A stretch of DNA of 64,000 nucleotides from Chryseobacterium defluvii (GTDB lineage Bacteria > Bacteroidota > Bacteroidia > Flavobacteriales > Weeksellaceae), in NCBI RefSeq assembly GCF_003634775.1, contig NZ_RBXB01000001.1, positions 1,116,001-1,180,000 of the forward strand, read 5' to 3'. The notes beneath the pieces were generated by a model. It made no database searches and was not told where the DNA came from. It saw only the letters and a list, made by a program, of their open reading frames with translations. Of the stretch, positions 54,709 to 63,380 are shown one piece after another; position 1 is the first letter of the stretch, and every line of letters starts with the position of its first letter. A program made the translations under genes and the position numbers.

Positions 54709-56334
54709 ATGAATTCAGTCAATGCAGCATTCCCGAAAATCTTTAAAAGCGAAAACGAAATACCGGAAGAATACAAAGTTCCCGAGATTCACCAGAGAAC
54801 CTATCTGCTCAACGGTGAGCTTGTAGCGTGGAATGGGGAAGTACAGAATGTTTACTCACCGGTTTGTATTCCTACGGAAAACGGTCTGGAAAGGAAACTG
54901 TTGGGAAGCATTCCCAATATTGGTCCGGATGAAGCCCTGAAAGTTCTTGACGCTTGCGTTAAAGCTTACGATAACGGATTAGGAGAATGGCCCACCATGT
55001 CGGTGGAGGGACGTATCAAATGCATGCAGAAATTTGTGTATCTGATGATCCGGCAGCGCGACCTTGTCATTAAGCTCCTGATGTGGGAAATCGGCAAAAC
55101 ACTGGCGGATTCTACCAAAGAGTTTGACCGTACTGTAGATTACATCAATCAGACCATTGATGCCTTAAAGGATCTGGATCGGGAATCTTCGCGTTTCAAG
55201 GAAGCGGAAGGCACCATTGCGCAGATCAGAAGAGCTCCGCTAGGGGTGGTCCTGAGTATGGGACCTTTCAATTATCCTCTGAACGAGATTTTCACCACGC
55301 TTATTCCGGCATTGATTATGGGGAATACCATTTTGTTTAAGCTTCCCAAACATGGTGTCCTGGCTCATTATCCCCTGCTGAATGCCTTTAAGGAAGCATT
55401 CCCGAAAGGAACGGTGAATACCTTATATGGAAAAGGTTCCGAAATCATTACTCCCATCATGGAAAGCGGAAAAGTGAATGTTCTGGCCTTCATCGGGTCC
55501 AGTAAAGTAGCGAACGGACTGAAGAAACTGCATCCTAAAGTGAACCGGTTGAGAGCAATATTAAGCCTGGACGCGAAAAATGCTGCGATTGTCACCAAAA
55601 ATGCCAATCTTGATGTTGCCGTTAATGAGTGTATTCTTGGTGCTTTGTCTTTTAATGGGCAGCGTTGTACGGCTCTTAAGCTGATATTTGTACAGAAAGA
55701 TGTAGCCGCAGAATTCACGGAAAAGCTAACGGCTGCAGTGGCTGCTCTGAAGCCTGGGCTGCCATGGGAAAAAGAGGTGAAAATAACTCCGCTTCCGGAA
55801 GTGAATAAACCGGACTACCTGAAAGAATGTATTGATGATGCTATCGCAAAAGGAGCGAAAGTCCTCAATGAAAATGGAGGTTACACTGAAACTTCCTTTG
55901 TTTTTCCGGCAGTAGTATATCCTGTGAACAGTGATATGAAGCTTTATCATGAAGAGCAGTTTGGTCCCATCATTCCTGTAGTGCCTTTTGATCATATTAA
56001 TGAGCCCATTGATTACCAGGTAAATGCATCCCATGGAATGCAGGTAAGTATTTTCAGTGAAGATCCGCAGGAAGTCGCTGAATTAATAGATCCTTTTGTG
56101 AATCTGGTAAGCCGTGTGAACATCAATTGCCAGGCGCAGAGAGGTCCTGATGTTTTTCCGTTTACAGGAAGAAAAGACAGTGCGGAAGGTACGCTTTCCG
56201 TGTTTGATGCGCTTCGTTCATTTTCCATCCGCTCATTGGTAGCTGCCAAGGTAACGGAATCCAATAAAAATTTATTAAATACGATTGTAAGAGATCATGA
56301 CTCCAATTTCCTGAGTACGGATTATATCTTTTGA
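54709..56334 (+). CDS. Aldehyde dehydrogenase, GapN-like (NADP-dependent glyceraldehyde-3-phosphate dehydrogenase)
   Basis: A 541-residue aldehyde dehydrogenase of the type usually annotated as NADP-dependent non-phosphorylating G3P dehydrogenase. It would oxidise glyceraldehyde 3-phosphate to 3-phosphoglycerate with NADPH formation. Visible motifs are LSMGPFNYPLNE, FKLPKHG, FIGSSKVANGL, the nucleophile C320 in FNGQRCTALK, and YHEEQFGPIIPVVPFD. The usual general-base Glu (34 residues before the Cys, in ELGGK) is replaced: the sequence there is LSLDAKNAAIV, with S286. Other details fit ALDH, so the enzyme may use a different base or have altered chemistry. Substrate assignment is moderate. Confidence 0.85.
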   Translation: MNSVNAAFPKIFKSENEIPEEYKVPEIHQRTYLLNGELVAWNGEVQNVYSPVCIPTENGLERKLLGSIPNIGPDEALKVLDACVKAYDNGLGEWPTMSVEGRIKCMQKFVYLMIRQRDLVIKLLMWEIGKTLADSTKEFDRTVDYINQTIDALKDLDRESSRFKEAEGTIAQIRRAPLGVVLSMGPFNYPLNEIFTTLIPALIMGNTILFKLPKHGVLAHYPLLNAFKEAFPKGTVNTLYGKGSEIITPIMESGKVNVLAFIGSSKVANGLKKLHPKVNRLRAILSLDAKNAAIVTKNANLDVAVNECILGALSFNGQRCTALKLIFVQKDVAAEFTEKLTAAVAALKPGLPWEKEVKITPLPEVNKPDYLKECIDDAIAKGAKVLNENGGYTETSFVFPAVVYPVNSDMKLYHEEQFGPIIPVVPFDHINEPIDYQVNASHGMQVSIFSEDPQEVAELIDPFVNLVSRVNINCQAQRGPDVFPFTGRKDSAEGTLSVFDALRSFSIRSLVAAKVTESNKNLLNTIVRDHDSNFLSTDYIF

Positions 56335-56357
56335 TAATTGTAGGCAGCATTATAGGT

Positions 56358-56396
56358 AAATCCTCAATAAAGTATCTTTTTATTGAGGATTTTTTA
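56358..56396 (+). terminator. Terminator after the GapN-like gene
   Basis: A 12-bp stem (AAATCCTCAATA / TATTGAGGATTT) followed by TTTT. Confidence 0.8.
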
Positions 56397-56433
56397 CTTT
56401 TAATGGAAATGTGTTGTGCTTTTTGTTAAAAAA

Positions 56434-56463
56434 TGTAACATTTATGAAAAATTGCTACTAACT
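56434..56463 (+). promoter_or_regulatory. ECF-type promoter 1 (sigma gene)
   Basis: TGTAACA, 17 nt, CTAACT. The extended downstream element reads CTACTAACTG. The ATG is 16 nt further on. Identical architecture to three other sites within 4 kb. Confidence 0.75.
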
Positions 56464-56479
56464 GTGCAGACTACAAGCC

Positions 56480-56983
56480 ATGTCTTCACAGGAAAAAGAG
56501 TTCTTGGAGAAAATTGAAAAGCATAAGGGTGTGATTTTCAAGATTTCTAAGATGTATATGGATAATCGGGACGACCAGAATGATCTCTATCAGGAGATCA
56601 TTTACCAAGCCTGGAAATCATACGCCGATTTCCAAAGGAAAAGTGATTTCTCAACCTGGCTTTACAGAACAGCGCTCAACACAGCCATAGTATTTCTCCG
56701 AAGTGAAAAAAAACGTAGTTTTATACAAAACCAAAGCATAGACAATCTTACCGTCCACCAGGAACCCTATAACGACACAGATGATAAAAATATGAAGAAG
56801 ATGTATGAAGCCATTCACCAGCTCAGCCCCATTGATAAAGCTCTTATCTTTTTCTTTCTGGAAGATTTTCCGGGAAAGGAAATTGCCAACCAATTGGGAA
56901 TTACGGAAGTGAATGCGAGAGTAAAGCTCAATAGAGCAAAAGCTAAACTAAAAGAAATAGTTGAAAAACAGAGAGACAATTAA
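56480..56983 (+). CDS. RNA polymerase sigma factor, ECF family
   Basis: A 167-residue ECF sigma factor. Region 2 is at about 10-80: the core-binding and -10 recognition helix DDQNDLYQEIIYQAWKSYADF and DFSTWLYRTALNTAIVFLRSEKK. Region 4 is at about 108-160: LSPIDKALIFFFLEDFPGKEIANQLGITEVNARVKLNRAKAKLKEI, the HTH that reads the -35 element. It is preceded by a promoter of the same type as those at nearby genes, which suggests positive autoregulation. The following membrane protein gene, 15 bp downstream, is probably its partner. Confidence 0.93.
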   Translation: MSSQEKEFLEKIEKHKGVIFKISKMYMDNRDDQNDLYQEIIYQAWKSYADFQRKSDFSTWLYRTALNTAIVFLRSEKKRSFIQNQSIDNLTVHQEPYNDTDDKNMKKMYEAIHQLSPIDKALIFFFLEDFPGKEIANQLGITEVNARVKLNRAKAKLKEIVEKQRDN

Positions 56984-56998
56984 TCAAAACAGTAAGGA

Positions 56999-57814
56999 AT
57001 GGAATTAGAAAATTTTAAAGAACTCTGGGATAAGGACAACAGGCAGTCCCCTCCCGAGGTATCTCTGGAAAAGCAGAATGAAATTCATTCGCCGCTACAG
57101 ATGCTCAGAATCAATATGGAAACCGAATTCTGGCTAATGGTTATTACATTACCCACATTTCTCATTGGTTCTCCATTTTCAATAGATGATCCTAATATCA
57201 GGACAATATCAATCATTGTTACGGTTTTAACGCTTGCTTTTATGGTGTACTTCTATTCAAGGTTTCTCAAACTTTATAAAATGCTTAAAAGAAGCAGCAT
57301 CAATACCAATTATGATTTATTTAATCTCAGGACACAGCTTTTGATTTCGAAAGAGATTTATATATCCTATTATATCGCTTATATTCCGTTGGCTTTGCTA
57401 TTATCATTGATTAAGATTAATTTTCATTTTGATGTGGAATACAATCTTGCCATTTTCGGATTCAGTTTTTTCATCACCCTTTTTCTTATCTATTTTATCA
57501 TAAAATATTGGATACATTATATGTACGGAAGGTATATTCAGGATGTTGTGCGTTTGGTGGACGAATTGAACGGAGTAGAGGTAAAGCCTCATATTTCCGG
57601 CAAAAAAACCTGGTTCGAACGTTCTCAGACTTACTTTATAACCCGGTACGGGATTAAAGGAAATGTACTGAATACCATTGTATGGTTTATTTCAGTGTAT
57701 ATCTGTATCACATTATTTTTCTTAATAGTTATTTTAATTGTCATTTTCATTGGGGTTAAACTGGATTTTGTTGATCTCCAATCCTTACAAAATGCCTTAG
57801 ACAGGCTGAATTAA
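56999..57814 (+). CDS. Membrane protein, probable anti-sigma partner
   Basis: A 271-residue protein with a short cytoplasmic N-terminus (MELENFKELWDKDNRQSPPEV) and about five membrane segments (about 45-62, 68-87, 122-141, 148-170, 225-257). No known domain is recognisable. Similar short N-termini followed by helices occur in membrane proteins paired with ECF sigma genes in Chryseobacterium. Position in the sigma operon (15-bp gap) suggests that it holds or senses the state of the sigma factor, but the classical anti-sigma zinc-finger motif is absent. Function inferred from context only. Confidence 0.75.
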   Translation: MELENFKELWDKDNRQSPPEVSLEKQNEIHSPLQMLRINMETEFWLMVITLPTFLIGSPFSIDDPNIRTISIIVTVLTLAFMVYFYSRFLKLYKMLKRSSINTNYDLFNLRTQLLISKEIYISYYIAYIPLALLLSLIKINFHFDVEYNLAIFGFSFFITLFLIYFIIKYWIHYMYGRYIQDVVRLVDELNGVEVKPHISGKKTWFERSQTYFITRYGIKGNVLNTIVWFISVYICITLFFLIVILIVIFIGVKLDFVDLQSLQNALDRLN

Positions 57815-57831
57815 ATATTTTGAAAAAAGAG

Positions 57832-57861
57832 TGTAACATTTTTCATTTTTTCCTACTAACT
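57832..57861 (+). promoter_or_regulatory. ECF-type promoter 2 (no gene downstream)
   Basis: TGTAACA, 17 nt, CTAACT, with the extended CTACTAACTG. It starts 17 nt after the stop of the membrane protein gene. Downstream is only a short gene-free stretch that ends in a terminator. Confidence 0.7.
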
Positions 57862-57867
57862 GACTAC

Positions 57868-57967
57868 AAATTCTAAGCGTACTATTGATACGGTACATTT
57901 GAGTAAATTAAAAAAACACCTTAAAAGATGATGACCGGTAGATAAATTATCCACCGGTTTTTTATTT
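57868..57967 (+). ncRNA. Candidate sigma-dependent small RNA
   Basis: The stretch between ECF-type promoter 2 and the terminator at 57934-57967 is about 100 nt and contains no frame longer than about 10 codons. If the promoter is active, the product would be a short non-coding RNA. An alternative is that the promoter is left over from a lost gene. No homology to a known RNA family can be stated. Confidence 0.4.
57934..57967 (+). terminator. Terminator of the candidate small RNA
   Basis: ACCGGT and ACCGGT pair, then one mismatch and GATAA/TTATC continue the stem. TTTTTTATTT follows. Confidence 0.75.
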
Positions 57968-58002
57968 CGTTATAAAAAAATTAACAAAAATTTAAAATGA
58001 CA

Positions 58003-58032
58003 TGTAACATTTTGTTTTTTATTCTACTAACT
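58003..58032 (+). promoter_or_regulatory. ECF-type promoter 3 (M4 protease gene)
   Basis: TGTAACA, 17 nt, CTAACT with the extended CTACTAACTG. The ATG is 23 nt further on. Confidence 0.75.
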
Positions 58033-58055
58033 GTGGGAAATAATTAAAAAATAAT

Positions 58056-60089
58056 ATGAAAAAGATCACTACAATTGTTAAAGCGTTGTCATTTGTTTTT
58101 GCTATTGGTGTTCCTACTTCTGCATTCCATGCACAGGATAGGAATGGAACGGAAATTTCTATTAAAGATCTGCCTAAGATTTCTGTTAATTCTTCTATAG
58201 GGAATTTTCAGGTCGGTTTTAGCGGGACAGATGTATCTGCTGATTTTTTATCTGCCCATTTGGGAGAGTGGCTGGGAACAAGCAGTGACCATACTTTTAC
58301 ATTCGTAAAAGCTTCAACCGATGAGCTGGGAATAAAACATTCTGTTTATCAGCATTTTTATAAAGGGATAAAAGTGGCGGATGAAGTTATTTTACTTCAT
58401 GAAAAGGAAGGTAAAATTACTTTTGTCAATGGTGAACTAAGCAGAGATATCCATCTGGACATCAAACAACCGCTTACCAGGACAGAAGTAGAAAGCATTG
58501 TGAATGCAGATATGAGAGCAGCCAATGTAACTTTCGACGAGTTTGATCAGGTAATTACCAAAGTTATCACAGGAAAAGAAGTGAGCCTGCACCTGACAAA
58601 CCAAATCAATGCTCTTTCATTAAAATCACTGGACAGCTATATGTATTATATTGATAATACAACGAAACAAATTGTAAAGAAGCTAGAAAAAATTCACCAT
58701 CATAACATTCCTGTAAGTAATGTGGCACCTTTAGTTGATGCGTCGTCTACAAGCGCAACTTATTACAAAGGTAATCAGCAAATTACAGTGGATTCATACA
58801 ATGGATCATATCGTCTAAGAGATAATGCAAGAAATATCCATACCTTGAATGGAACAAACTGGGATGGAAACGGAACAGCTGCAGGCGGCTTAACGGGAAA
58901 TATTACTGAATATACCAATGCCACTGCAAATTTCACGGCTACAGAAACTAAGCCGCCTGTTGAAGTTCATTGGGCTATGAAAACGGCTTATGATTATTAT
59001 GTAAACAGACATAATAGAAACTCGTATGATAATAACGGGTCTATTATCAGAAACTATTATAATATTAATTTTAACAGAAATTCAAGCACCGGAGCGGCAC
59101 AAACTCCGGAAAACGGAGTAAATGCGGCAGCAATAGATACACAGGGAATTGTAGCGATGGTATATGGAAATGGAGCTTACCAGGGACAGGCGGGTTACTT
59201 TTATCCATTTGTAGCGCTGGATGTAGCTGGCCACGAGTATTCTCACCTTATGGTAAGCAGAACAGCTAATTTAGCATATCAGGGAGAATCAGGAGCGTTG
59301 AATGAATCTTTTGCCGATATATTTGGAGCGTCAATTGAATTTTATTCCAACCTGAGTCCGAACTGGACCATTGGGGAAGGGATTCCTAATCCGGCATTGG
59401 GGTTTACTTATCTAAGAAGCATGTCGAATCCTAATTCAGGTCCTGCGGCATTATCTTCCCAACAGCCGGACACTTATCAGGGTACTTACTGGGCGAATAC
59501 GGCAGGTCCATATTCTCAAGCAAATGACTTTGGAGGAGTACATACCAACAGTGGGGTAGGAAATTATTGGTTTTACCTGTTATCTGTAGGAGGTTCAGGG
59601 ACGAATGATATAGGGAATGCCTTTAGTGTGACGGGGATAACGATCCAAAAAGCAGAAAAAATTGCCTACAGAACACTGGCTAATTATCTTACGGCAAACA
59701 GCCAGTTTGTGGATGCCTATAATTTATCAAAACAAGCGGTAACCGACCTGTATGGAGCTTCAAGCAATGAGCAGCTTCAGAACGTAAAAGCATGGTACGC
59801 TGTTGGATTCGGTAACGGATTATTGGCAACCAATGAGGTGGGAAATAAATTGGAAAATCAGTTCAATATATATCCTAATCCGGCTAAAGGAGGGATATTT
59901 ACCATAGAAAACACTAAAAATGAAGCTGTATTTGAATTATATGACGTTTCAGGAAGATTGATCAAGAAAGCGGAGAAACTGAACAGAGGGAAAAATAACA
60001 TTCATATTGATGGTGTTCAAAAAGGAGTTTACTTAGTAAAAATTAATTCTGAGGGGTCTACTGTTTCCAAAAAAATAGTAGTTGAGTAA
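58056..60089 (+). CDS. Secreted M4-family metallopeptidase with T9SS type A sorting domain
   Basis: A 677-residue thermolysin-like zinc protease. It has a signal peptide ending FHAQ, an FTP/propeptide region (about 30-210, GIKHSVYQHFYKGIKVADEV), and the catalytic M4 domain (about 245-590) with H393-E-Y-S-H397 and the third zinc ligand E417 in GALNESFADIFG. The spacing of 24 residues from H393 to E417 matches thermolysin. A later histidine in GGVHTNSGVGNYWFYLL corresponds to the second catalytic His region. The C-terminus (about 600-677: FNIYPNPAKGGIFTIEN, GVYLVKINSEGSTVSKKIVVE) is a T9SS type A signal. Expected to be exported to the surface or medium. Under the ECF-type promoter. Confidence 0.95.
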   Translation: MKKITTIVKALSFVFAIGVPTSAFHAQDRNGTEISIKDLPKISVNSSIGNFQVGFSGTDVSADFLSAHLGEWLGTSSDHTFTFVKASTDELGIKHSVYQHFYKGIKVADEVILLHEKEGKITFVNGELSRDIHLDIKQPLTRTEVESIVNADMRAANVTFDEFDQVITKVITGKEVSLHLTNQINALSLKSLDSYMYYIDNTTKQIVKKLEKIHHHNIPVSNVAPLVDASSTSATYYKGNQQITVDSYNGSYRLRDNARNIHTLNGTNWDGNGTAAGGLTGNITEYTNATANFTATETKPPVEVHWAMKTAYDYYVNRHNRNSYDNNGSIIRNYYNINFNRNSSTGAAQTPENGVNAAAIDTQGIVAMVYGNGAYQGQAGYFYPFVALDVAGHEYSHLMVSRTANLAYQGESGALNESFADIFGASIEFYSNLSPNWTIGEGIPNPALGFTYLRSMSNPNSGPAALSSQQPDTYQGTYWANTAGPYSQANDFGGVHTNSGVGNYWFYLLSVGGSGTNDIGNAFSVTGITIQKAEKIAYRTLANYLTANSQFVDAYNLSKQAVTDLYGASSNEQLQNVKAWYAVGFGNGLLATNEVGNKLENQFNIYPNPAKGGIFTIENTKNEAVFELYDVSGRLIKKAEKLNRGKNNIHIDGVQKGVYLVKINSEGSTVSKKIVVE

Positions 60090-60113
60090 ATTGAATGTAC
60101 CGACATCATGATG

Positions 60114-60145
60114 AACCGACAGAAACTTCTGTCGGTTTTTTTTTA
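60114..60145 (+). terminator. Terminator after the M4 protease gene
   Basis: AACCGACAGA and TCTGTCGGTT pair around AACT, followed by a T-run. Confidence 0.85.
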
Positions 60146-60159
60146 TTTTAAAAAAAATC

Positions 60160-60189
60160 TGTAACATTTTTTTTGTAATAAAACTAACT
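60160..60189 (+). promoter_or_regulatory. ECF-type promoter 4 (broken sigma gene)
   Basis: TGTAACA, 17 nt, CTAACT; the outer CTA of the extended element is AAA here. The ATG is 17 nt further on. The site is intact although the gene behind it is not. Confidence 0.65.
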
Positions 60190-60206
60190 CTATAGAGTAA
60201 GCAACC

Positions 60207-60575
60207 ATGACCTCATCAGAACAGGATTTTTTAGAAAAAATAGAAAAGCATAAAGGAATCATTTTCAAGATTTCTAAGATGTATATGCATGAGAAAGACG
60301 ACAGAGATGATCTCTTCCAGGAGATCACCTATCAGGTCTGGAAGGCATATCCTTCTTTCAGAGGACAAAGTGAATTTTCTACCTGGTTATACAGAATTGC
60401 TTTAAATACCGCCATTATTTTCCTGAAGTCCGAAAAATGAGAAGCTTTATAGCCAATGAAGATTTTTCCGGCTATAAAATAGTACAGGATGAATACAATG
60501 AGGACAAAGAAAAAAAGCTATTTGCGATGTATCATGCCATCCACCAATTAAAAAACCCTATTGATAAAACTTTTA
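60207..60575 (+). pseudogene. Broken ECF sigma factor gene (frameshift and 3' truncation)
   Basis: Close paralogue of the sigma gene at 56480. Residues 1-77 (MTSSEQDFLEKIEKHKGIIF ... FLKSEK) match region 2, then a TGA at 60438-60440 stops the frame. Restoring one A in the AAAAA tract just before it joins KSEK to MRSFIANEDFSG... in the next frame, matching the intact paralogue's KRSFIQN. Similarity continues to HQLKNPIDKTFI (about 60570) and ends exactly where the minus-strand S41 gene stops. Region 4 with its HTH is gone, so no functional sigma factor can be made. A stand-alone region 2 fragment is still encoded. Confidence 0.88.
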
Positions 60576-62108
60576 TTGTGCATTATTTCCTTTCTCTCTT
60601 TCAATCTCTTTCATCACCCAATCCATCTGGGGATCTCTTTTATCAATTATGTCCTGAATACTTTCAGTAACCGTTATATCCGGGATTACTCCTCTCCGGG
60701 TGTTGGTGAAATTGATATTGGGCTGTACCAGAAGTAACCCGATCGGTAAATCGATTTTAGAATTGGGAAGTTTTTGGTAAGAATAAAATCCTGCAACGGT
60801 GCCGTCATTGGCTCCTCCCGTTTCTTCTCCTACAATAACGGCGCGCTTATCATTCTTAAGCTTGGCTGAAATAATAGAAGATGCCGAAAAACTTCCACCA
60901 TTGACCAGTATGAAAACTTTCCCATTGTAAGCATTCTTATTAGGCTTGGTGGGTTTGTTTTCTTTCATTTTGTAAAAAACTTTTCCGTCTTTTTTGTAAG
61001 TGCTGAAAGTCTGGGCAAAGAAATAAGTAGGATAGGTAAGACTCTTATAAGCATATTGCAGGACGTTGCTTTTTCTAAAATAATTGGTCTTAAGGGGAGT
61101 CATTTTAGAAGTAACCTCTGAAGGTTTTATCAATACAAAAGGTTCCGGGGCAAGATAAGAATACAGATTATTGATCTCATATAAAGATCCCCCGTAATTA
61201 TTACGGATATCTATAATGAGATAAGAGACCTTTGCATTCTTAATATGGGCAAAAGCTTCCTTATAGAATTGGTCCGAATAGGATCGTGAAAAACTCCTTA
61301 TTTTTACATACGCAATACTGCTGTCCTTATCCAGAAACCTGAAGTTTCTGTTATAGGAATTGTTAAAAGCGATATAATCATTTACTTTTTTTTCAGGCGT
61401 TCTTTTTTTCAGCTTCTTATCGTTTTCAATATCGGTTTTAGACTTTGTTTCCCTTTTTAAAGTATAAACTTTTTTTACGTTGTTATAGAGAGTCTCAATG
61501 TTGGCGCTGTCGGCAAGTCCATTTTCTGCGGTATAGAAATTAAAAAAAGTATCTTTCAGGAAATAAGGCTGAAAAGTAGTGTTAAATCCGTCACTGCTGA
61601 TCAGGTTTCTGTACTTTTTAAGATAATCCGAGACCGGGACTTTATTAATTGCCAATATTTCAGTTCCGGGCAGTATTCCTTCAATAGAATCTTTATTTTC
61701 AACAATATACAAATGATCATCTTTCACGTAATATTCAAAACGGCTGAACATTCCCTTTTTATTCCGGAAAGATTTGAAATCTTTTTTTCCAAATTTTTTT
61801 CTTGGAATTCTGAGAGACAGATGCCCTTCGCGGATACTTGCAATAACGGGTTGTAAGGTAAAATAAAACTGAAGCGGAGTAAGCGGTTTGTTGAGAGTGC
61901 TTTTTACGCTGTCGAATTTATGGGCCAGCTCTTCTTTTGAAATATACCAATAGAGCTGGGGATGCATCTTCTGAAGTTTACGATAGGCATAATCCACATC
62001 TTGTTTCAGCTTTTCAGGAGGAATAAGAGAAGTGGTCTGTTCATTATGTTTTCGGACAGAACATGAGGTGAGAATTAAAAATAATAATACTATCGAATAA
62101 TTTTTCAA
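60573..62108 (-). CDS. S41-family peptidase lipoprotein
   Basis: A 511-residue lipoprotein (LILTSC, Cys16) of the C-terminal processing peptidase-like S41 family. An N-terminal helical region (about 30-95) is followed by a possible PDZ-like part near VENKDSIEGILPGTEILAINKVPVSDYLKKY, then the catalytic domain (about 260-500) with YLIIDIRNNYGGSLYEI, VFILVNGGSFSASSIISAKLK (Ser nucleophile) and VIVGEETGGANDG. It is probably periplasmic. Its substrate is unknown. Its 3' end coincides with the truncation point of the sigma pseudogene, so its terminal residues (EREKGNNAQ) could have been altered by that event. Confidence 0.9.
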   Translation of the reverse strand: MKNYSIVLLFLILTSCSVRKHNEQTTSLIPPEKLKQDVDYAYRKLQKMHPQLYWYISKEELAHKFDSVKSTLNKPLTPLQFYFTLQPVIASIREGHLSLRIPRKKFGKKDFKSFRNKKGMFSRFEYYVKDDHLYIVENKDSIEGILPGTEILAINKVPVSDYLKKYRNLISSDGFNTTFQPYFLKDTFFNFYTAENGLADSANIETLYNNVKKVYTLKRETKSKTDIENDKKLKKRTPEKKVNDYIAFNNSYNRNFRFLDKDSSIAYVKIRSFSRSYSDQFYKEAFAHIKNAKVSYLIIDIRNNYGGSLYEINNLYSYLAPEPFVLIKPSEVTSKMTPLKTNYFRKSNVLQYAYKSLTYPTYFFAQTFSTYKKDGKVFYKMKENKPTKPNKNAYNGKVFILVNGGSFSASSIISAKLKNDKRAVIVGEETGGANDGTVAGFYSYQKLPNSKIDLPIGLLLVQPNINFTNTRRGVIPDITVTESIQDIIDKRDPQMDWVMKEIEREKGNNAQ

Positions 62109-62285
62109 GACAACTGAGTTTCAATCAATCTGCTAAATTACAGAGTTTTAAATTATTGAAGATTAAATCAATGATAAATTATTCTGAAATCCTTTTAATT
62201 TTAGTTAAAATAGTTGTGTCCTCATCCTATTGACTTTCATTTAAATCAAAAAGTCAATACATTTGATGCTTATTTAAAAAAACAA

Positions 62286-63380
62286 ATGATTTATTTAATT
62301 ATTACGATAGTTGGTTTAATAATACTCTATTTTATCATAACAGGTCAGCAGGCTTTCGGGGCAGAACCTAAGGGAGCGAGATTGCAACGAATACAACAAT
62401 CGGGGCTTTATAAAGACAAACAGTTTCAGAATCTAAGCCCTACACCCTCTATTGCAGAAGGCTACAGCATGCCGAAAGTAATGTATGATTTCTTTTTTGC
62501 GAAAAAAAATCCGCTTTTAAAGCCCCTGAATAGCATTCCGTCTGTTCATACCAACCTGAAAAGCCTTTCAAGAAATGTAGATGTCTTCATTTGGCTGGGG
62601 CATTCATCCTATTATATTCAGGCGGATGGTATTTCTTTTTTGATAGATCCGGTACTGAGCTCTTACGGTTCACCGTTTAAATTTTTTAATAAAGCATTTC
62701 AGGGCTCAGATATCTTTACGCCTGAAGATGTTCCCAACCTGGATTATCTTGTGATTACCCATGATCACTTTGATCATCTTGATTATCCGACAGTGAAGGC
62801 AATCAGGGACAGGGTAGGCAAAGTAATTCTGCCCTTAGGAGTCGGGGCGCATTTGGAAAGATGGGGATATACCGCTGATCAGCTTATCGAAGAAGAGTGG
62901 GGAGCATCCATCGATTTAAAAAATAACAGTAAGATTACTTATACCCCTGCAAGGCATTTTTCAGGGAGAAAAATAAAAAGAAACAATACACTTTGGACTT
63001 CCTATGTTCTTGAGACACCCACTAAAAAAATATTTCTGGGCGGAGACAGCGGGTATGATACCCATTTTAAAATGATCGGGGATACTTACGGACCTTTTGA
63101 TTATGCCATTATTGAAAACGGGCAATACAACGAAGCCTGGAAATATATCCATGCCTTGCCGGAAGATGTTATCCAGGCAAGTATAGATGTCAATGCCAGG
63201 AATATCATTCCTGTACATTCGGCGAAGTTTGCTCTGGCGCTTCACGCATGGAATGAGCCCCTGAAAAAAGTAACAGAACTTGGAAGAGGAAAAAATCTCG
63301 ATATACTGACCCCAATGATCGGTGAAATTGTTGATTTAAATAAATCGGACAATCGCTTTACAACCTGGTGGGAAGACTAG
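62286..63380 (+). CDS. MBL-fold metallo-hydrolase (NAPE-PLD/UlaG-like)
   Basis: A 364-residue protein. The ATG at 62286 is preferred over a TTG at 62214 because it starts with the membrane-anchor MIYLIITIVGLIILYFIITG. The metallo-beta-lactamase domain (about 115-340) has VFIWLGHSSYYIQADGISFLIDPV, the metal motif VITHDHFDHLDYP (H-x-H-x-D-H variant T-H-D-H-F-D-H), and downstream HFSGRKIKRNNTLWTSYVLE, LGGDSGYDTHF and IIPVHSAKFAL. This pattern matches NAPE-PLD and UlaG-like hydrolases, acting on phospholipid-type or small lactone substrates. Tail-to-tail overlap of 4 bp with the GNAT gene. Confidence 0.9.
   Translation: MIYLIITIVGLIILYFIITGQQAFGAEPKGARLQRIQQSGLYKDKQFQNLSPTPSIAEGYSMPKVMYDFFFAKKNPLLKPLNSIPSVHTNLKSLSRNVDVFIWLGHSSYYIQADGISFLIDPVLSSYGSPFKFFNKAFQGSDIFTPEDVPNLDYLVITHDHFDHLDYPTVKAIRDRVGKVILPLGVGAHLERWGYTADQLIEEEWGASIDLKNNSKITYTPARHFSGRKIKRNNTLWTSYVLETPTKKIFLGGDSGYDTHFKMIGDTYGPFDYAIIENGQYNEAWKYIHALPEDVIQASIDVNARNIIPVHSAKFALALHAWNEPLKKVTELGRGKNLDILTPMIGEIVDLNKSDNRFTTWWED

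Follow-up and report, generated by a model that had tools for sequence, protein, structure and literature searches.

A predicted extracytoplasmic function sigma factor regulon in Chryseobacterium defluvii with a putatively exported metalloprotease and a non-coding unit resembling the end of a protease gene

We analysed a 64,000-nucleotide stretch of the Chryseobacterium defluvii genome (positions 1,116,001 to 1,180,000 of contig NZ_RBXB01000001.1; hereafter the window), in which a gene for an extracytoplasmic function (ECF) sigma factor, sigma 1, lies among four copies of the motif TGTAACA-N17-CTAACT. We predict with good confidence that these sites define a small regulon. Sigma 1 probably transcribes its own gene, the gene of an M4 metalloprotease with a tail for the type IX secretion system (T9SS), and an RNA of ~100 nt, the novel element, which appears to descend from a gutted protease gene. 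An earlier note, made from the sequence alone, had described the sites; new here are a recurring non-coding unit like the 3' end of an M4 gene, and the status of a broken second sigma gene, sigma 2, as a paralogue with its own flavour of site. The features of the locus are as follows.

56434..56463, + strand: predicted promoter of sigma 1, CTACTAACTG flavour (motif scans; CTAACT ends 16 nt 5' of the ATG)
56480..56983, + strand: sigma 1, 167 aa, sigma factor of ECF type (Sigma70_r2 and Sigma70_r4_2 in Pfam; TIGR02937 over the NCBIfam cut-off)
56999..57814, + strand: TMP1, membrane protein, 271 aa, presumed anti-sigma factor (adjoins sigma 1; several hydrophobic stretches)
57832..57861, + strand: predicted promoter of the non-coding unit, CTACTAACTG flavour (motif scans; 18 nt past the TMP1 stop)
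57862..57967, + strand: predicted non-coding RNA unit, core like the 3' end of an M4 gene with its final codons and stop (match to model R1; 38-copy alignment)
57934..57958, + strand: terminator hairpin of the RNA unit, then TTTTTTATTT (fold; + strand T run read from the sequence)
58003..58032, + strand: predicted promoter of the M4 protease, CTACTAACTG flavour (motif scans; 23 nt 5' of the ATG)
58056..60089, + strand: M4 (thermolysin-type) metalloprotease, 677 aa, with propeptide, HEYSH motif and T9SS type A tail (Pfam, NCBIfam)
60113..60138, + strand: M4 gene terminator (terminator scan)
60160..60189, + strand: predicted promoter of sigma 2, AAACTAACTC flavour (motif scans)
60207..60440, + strand: broken sigma 2, N-terminal piece, 77 aa, region 2 only (Pfam Sigma70_r2)
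60437..60590, + strand: broken sigma 2, second piece, in a different frame and with an approximate end (resembles sigma 2 of locus L088 by eye)

Scanning the window recovered all four sites of the earlier note, at 56434, 57832, 58003 and 60160 and all on the + strand, and the longer sequence said to be common to three of them was indeed CTACTAACTG at 56434, 57832 and 58003, with AAACTAACTC at 60160. Chance had been called unlikely, and the numbers agree: none of 100 dinucleotide shuffles contained any match, and the whole genome (3.71 Mb, 8 contigs) held five exact sites, against none for a reversed-pattern control. The motif is therefore rare in the genome-wide scan that the note had proposed, and four of the five sites are packed within 3.8 kb. 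When we allowed up to three mismatches in TGTAACATTT-N14-CTAACT, the genome gave 54 matches compared to 96 for the control (5, 0, 6 and 43 with 0, 1, 2 and 3 mismatches, respectively), so that the exact sites alone stand out. Searching for TGTAACATTT-N12 to 17-TAACT returned the same five sites, with one for the control; since the loosened spacing yields no further sites, the 17-nt spacing is strict, as had been proposed. The placement of sites just before gene starts held for sigma 1, the M4 protease and broken sigma 2, where the end of CTAACT lies 16, 23 and 17 nt from the ATG, but not for the 57832 site, which no gene follows.

The predicted proteins suggest how such a regulon could be built. 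Sigma 1 is a short protein with regions 2 and 4 only (Pfam gathering score, TIGR02937), which places it among the ECF sigma factors. Like the SusCD-linked family TIGR02985 it is a Bacteroidota ECF sigma, but it scores only 54.2 bits against that model (cut-off 126.4), and the neighbouring genes that were identified here include no SusCD pair. Its score against the GFO_1088/PG0214 family ECF sigma model NF058625 was also below the cut-off (64.7 compared to 130 bits). Two paralogues with 46% identity are found elsewhere in the genome, each beside a protein that is hydrophobic by eye. TMP1 adjoins sigma 1 in all 54 of the sigma 1 loci described below, with a gap of 9–18 nt in 50 of them, and is the presumed anti-sigma factor of sigma 1. 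The protease matches PF01447 and PF02868 and carries HEYSH at residue 393, as expected of an M4 enzyme; its C-terminus matches PF18962 and TIGR04183 above cut-off, which predicts a T9SS cargo, and it would be exported by that route.

The sites track the sigma family across the genus. In a set of 148 genomes we scored the family as present at E <= 1e-50 and sigma 1 as present at a best E < 1e-75. The exact motif occurred 220 times in 124 of the 148 genomes, compared to 30 times in 27 genomes for the reversed control. The sigma family was present in 135 genomes, 124 of which had an exact site, whereas none of the 13 genomes without the family had one (Fisher p 1.6e-12). The mean number of sites was 2.31 per genome where sigma 1 was present (n = 70) and 0.89 where only sigma 2 was (n = 65). 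In the bacterial family as a whole, the motif was found in 145 of 296 genomes and in 6 of 33 genera.

To the genome counts we added a scan of loci in named genomes, keeping 80 of 188; the 54 sigma 1 loci among them (L088–L141, 73–95% identity) all come from genomes that bear the name Chryseobacterium. Genes typically follow the order ALDH, sigma 1, TMP1, the RNA unit in some, an M4 gene in some, sigma 2, its membrane partner TMP2 and S41, with parts often missing. Exact sites numbered 107 in 57 of the 80 loci: 42 before sigma 2, 17 before M4 genes, 10 before sigma 1 and 38 with no gene after them. One of the 38, in L163, proved to be a sigma 1 site with another start, leaving 37 RNA units. Another 20 lone sites were fetched, of which 11 precede an M36 protease, three a second M4 gene, three sigma 2 and two a T9SS-tailed fn3 protein; the remaining one has no gene after it. 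The M36 proteins (after L069, L071, L073, L075, L076, L078–L080 and L084–L086) are fungalysins with a T9SS tail; in the C. defluvii genome itself the M36 catalytic part had no match, the 25 matches being to the T9SS tail of the query only. Because M36 genes follow 11 of the 20 lone sites in relatives, the protease set of the regulon varies by species. The end of CTAACT lies mostly 16–26 nt from the start for sigma and M4 genes and 30–42 nt for M36, although part of these distances in relatives were counted one nt too large and a few starts were mis-called. Taken together, the comparison supports the earlier proposal of an autoregulated ECF sigma with a T9SS-exported protease as its output, as the sites follow the sigma family and precede sigma and T9SS-tailed protease genes in relatives.

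The stretch behind the 57832 site had been called gene-free. This is correct as far as genes go, but the stretch is not empty: the promoter is followed by ~100 nt without a gene and then a terminator, and this arrangement recurs in 37 of the 54 named sigma 1 loci. With its own promoter, a terminator and no open reading frame (ORF), the unit looks like a sigma-dependent small RNA, as a predicted transcript. The terminator scan lists the hairpin at 57934..57958 on the - strand only. We built a covariance model, R1, from 15 copies of the unit; it matched all 37 named RNA loci at E <= 0.001, although 11 of these genomes are in the training set and are not independent. In the C. defluvii genome R1 gave two matches only, the RNA unit (57848–57964, 54.3 bits) and the 3' end of the M4 gene (60020–60142, 43.2 bits). 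Scores of at least 54 bits were reached in 52 of the 148 genomes. Three of these hits are M4 3' ends (judged from coordinates for G125 and from sequence for G027 and G120), and 47 of the other 49 genomes, which were partly inspected, have sigma 1. The two exceptions are G062, with sigma 1-like pieces in several frames, and G106, in which the search detected no sigma 1 and the unit's promoter has drifted to CTAATT. Weaker R1 matches elsewhere in other genomes (~38–45 bits) look like ordinary terminators. Rfam returned no match at gathering score, and its three sub-threshold matches in 56000–62500 lie outside 57862–57967. A small ORF was considered and rejected, as no frame is common to the 38 copies and the recurring peptides are the terminator read in different frames. 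Nor was a strongly structured RNA supported: RNAalifold pairs the terminator only, and both partners have changed in 2 of its 12 pairs.

The unit appears to be a gutted M4 protease gene that has retained its promoter and terminator. The RNA core aligns with the last M4 codons, and in-frame ends can still be read as ...KIVVE-stop in L088, the locus of Chryseobacterium daecheongense DSM 15235, and ...IKIISYKGSVFYKQMLE-stop in L099; in L128, VKIIISSKILLEQIAIE-stop stands directly 3' of the promoter (for comparison, the M4 gene of L104 ends ...IIKISVNGTAVSKKIVVE-stop). In comparisons with M4 3' ends, the core outscored 95 or more of 100 shuffles in 23 of 38 copies; with TMP1 3' ends it did so in 2 of 38. 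From this likeness we infer that the middle of an M4 gene was lost and that its promoter and 3' end remained; the 5' part of the RNA resembled M4 starts in only 2 of 38 copies. In a sigma 1–TMP1 tree of 55 loci the unit is found in none of the 8 outgroup rows and in 38 of the 47 others, a group with support of 94/95, short of the starred level. The label changes eight times on the tree, which is compatible with one gain and seven losses. Locus L107 (7405–12029) has two tandem M4 genes with an RNA unit between them, which may show what the locus looked like after a duplication and before the remnant formed.

The fifth exact site of the C. defluvii genome (L001:1501–1660; G000:C1:931425) lies between SRPBCC-like and fucosidase-like genes, named by eye, and is followed by ~120 nt and a strong hairpin. 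In a DNA search its first 70 nt matched the promoter and start regions of M4 genes of relatives at 75–78%, and this stretch may be a second M4 remnant. We also considered whether lone non-coding sites are M36 remnants; this was unsupported for L001, L077 and L177, and L001 was tied to M4 starts instead.

Several lines of evidence bear on whether the unit is kept for use. Among the 30 best R1 hits, whose loci were not preselected for a promoter, 29 have the exact promoter and one has an 18-nt spacer. Where the promoter has been lost, in L133, L252 and L118, the RNA is weaker or absent. In L101, L113, L137 and L063 no codirectional gene follows the unit, yet the site and RNA are retained, which argues for the RNA being made. 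Across 18 pairs of loci, mean identity was 0.90 in the last 48 nt of the RNA, 0.78 in the rest, 0.72 in the upstream flank and 0.68 at fourfold sites; these pairs and the rows of alignment A2 were chosen with exact promoters, so that the promoter identity of 1.00 is by construction. This pattern favours selection on transcription and on the 3' module, and weakly on the body.

Some observations weigh against the regulon as we propose it. Eleven genomes have the sigma family without any exact site, and 44 of the 54 named loci lack an exact site before sigma 1, indicating that autoregulation of sigma 1 is not universal. A few sites fit poorly: that of L170 stands before a protein without a family match, that of L204 lies 140 nt before a T9SS-tailed protein, and no gene follows those of L077 and L177. 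TMP1 has no Pfam or NCBIfam match and no recognised anti-sigma domain, and its AlphaFold model is poor (mean pLDDT, the model's own confidence score, 61.3). For the RNA, the adverse points are L114, where the promoter is lost and the 3' end still scores 62 bits; the weak internal folding of the unit (mean z-score -0.5, 12 of 38 copies below -1); the strong divergence of the window copy, with body identity of 0.44 to L088; and the second M4-like remnant at G000:C1:931425.

Two side observations concern the same loci. Upstream of sigma 1 in loci without the exact site (L091, L095, L111, L126 and others) an AT-rich inverted repeat was seen by eye. The sites of L077 (1501–1610; G025) and L177 (G121) are followed by another short non-coding stretch with a terminator, and the two are alike (local score 62).

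It is quite conceivable, if short of an even chance, that the unit at 57832 is instead a decaying pseudogene, left when an M4 gene lost its middle, with a promoter that still works or merely lingers and a transcript that is idle. The core does read as a decayed M4 C-terminus, the L001 stretch, with its promoter and 5' part, resembles another M4 remnant, the window copy has diverged as described, and 9 of the 47 clade rows lack a unit with an exact promoter. However, an idle relic would not readily account for the exact promoter in 29 of 30 hits that were picked by the RNA 3' end, when the fourfold sites of neighbouring genes range from 0.49 to 0.87 (18 exact-promoter pairs), nor for the 0.90 identity of the last 48 nt or the persistence of the unit in L101, L113, L137 and L063. 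On balance we judge it slightly more likely that the RNA is used than that it is just a relic.

Two further explanations seem improbable. The 57832 site might be an extra promoter, or the unit a leader (attenuator) with a leaky terminator, for the downstream gene, which is M4 here and sigma 2 in relatives; indeed, the unit lies directly before an M4 or sigma 2 promoter in many loci. But the downstream genes each own an exact site, the next gene is convergent in the same four loci, and 361–583 nt separate the site of the unit from the next site in L049, L058 and L065. There is likewise little chance, in our judgement, that the sites serve another sigma factor, or some other regulator that binds them, with sigma 1 and the protease as fellow targets. 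The two further paralogues in the genome would provide candidates for this role; on the other side, sites are lost together with the sigma family, their number follows sigma 1, and it is in G106, without a detected sigma 1, that the promoter of the unit has drifted.

In the regulon that we favour, the membrane protein TMP1 would hold sigma 1 until a signal frees it, and the freed sigma 1 would read TGTAACA-N17-CTAACT, its own promoter amplifying the response. The M4 protease would leave the cell through the T9SS. The RNA unit would consist of the promoter, last codons, A-rich tract and terminator of an M4 gene, the rest being lost, and its retention with an intact promoter in most of one clade would reflect selection for its transcription. 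More tentatively, the gutted gene might have become a small RNA that tunes the output of exported protease, either by sharing its A-rich 3' module with the protease mRNA and so competing for any factor bound there, or by pairing with other mRNAs, and without a detectable Hfq; we consider this possible, though doubtful. No Hfq was found in the C. defluvii genome by a search whose control was positive in only 5 of 14 known genomes. Enterobacterial Sigma-E is an ECF sigma that makes mRNAs as well as the small RNAs MicA and RybB, which pair with mRNAs aided by Hfq. The output predicted here is likewise mRNAs plus a small RNA, but in a genome where no Hfq was found.

To our knowledge, ECF sigma factors are numerous in Bacteroidota, and the promoter and targets are known for few of them. 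At this locus the sequence reveals both unusually clearly, the predicted targets being exported metalloproteases. In the literature searched, which covers few subscription journals, we found neither the promoter nor the regulon nor the RNA described for Chryseobacterium. In the PorXY-SigP system of Porphyromonas gingivalis, SigP is an ECF sigma that binds promoters of T9SS machinery genes, with a different motif suggested (PMC4800418). Like sigma 1, it belongs to the ECF sigmas of Bacteroidota and has a link to type IX secretion; it differs in working with the response regulator PorX, where sigma 1 has the adjacently encoded membrane protein as presumed partner, and in targeting the T9SS machinery instead of the exported proteases and the sigma gene predicted as targets here (PMC4800418). 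In Flavobacterium psychrophilum, the SM6 promoter class is also of ECF type and includes one sigma/anti-sigma pair and T9SS genes, but has a CGT box in place of CTAACT (PMC9723704). The nearest functional precedent for the RNA is Rfp18 of the same species, deletion of which lowers Fpp1 mRNA (PMC9723704). Like the RNA predicted here, it is a flavobacterial non-coding RNA connected with metalloproteases; Rfp18, compared by description only, is strongly structured, whereas the unit here is weakly so and resembles a protease gene 3' end (PMC9723704). The non-coding unit would represent a many-species case of a transcript descended from a protein gene of the same regulon, so that straightforward deletions could test how such RNAs arise and what they are used for.

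As the earlier note had stated, sigma 2 is broken: the reading frame ends after 77 aa, and the second piece lies in another frame. The N-terminal part is 67% identical to sigma 1 over residues 1–81, with one TGA inside, and the second piece was matched in the sigma search of the genome itself (1176359–1176610 of the contig). The remainder and the partner gene are missing, beside the 3' end of the convergent S41 gene. Of the 54 sigma 1 loci in named genomes, 43 have an intact or nearly intact sigma 2. By these comparisons it is a paralogue of sigma 1 that has a similar partner in relatives and is broken here.

The RNA unit is also found without sigma 2 in six named loci (L101, L105, L107, L113, L132 and L137), the window genome being the seventh; the absence of sigma 2 was checked genome-wide for L105, L107, L113 and L137 only (G047, G033, G133 and G076, with one sigma match each). 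Retention of the sites and the unit in loci without sigma 2 suggests that sigma 1 by itself suffices for the sites to persist. The sites also fall into two flavours. The CTACTAACT flavour is found at 37 of 37 RNA sites and 13 of 17 M4 sites, and is absent from 41 of 42 sigma 2 sites. A TAGAG element after CTAACT, in contrast, occurs at 38 of the 42 sigma 2 sites and none of the 17 M4 sites. This element, also present in 60160–60215 of the window, may distinguish one sigma factor from the other or point to an additional layer of control.

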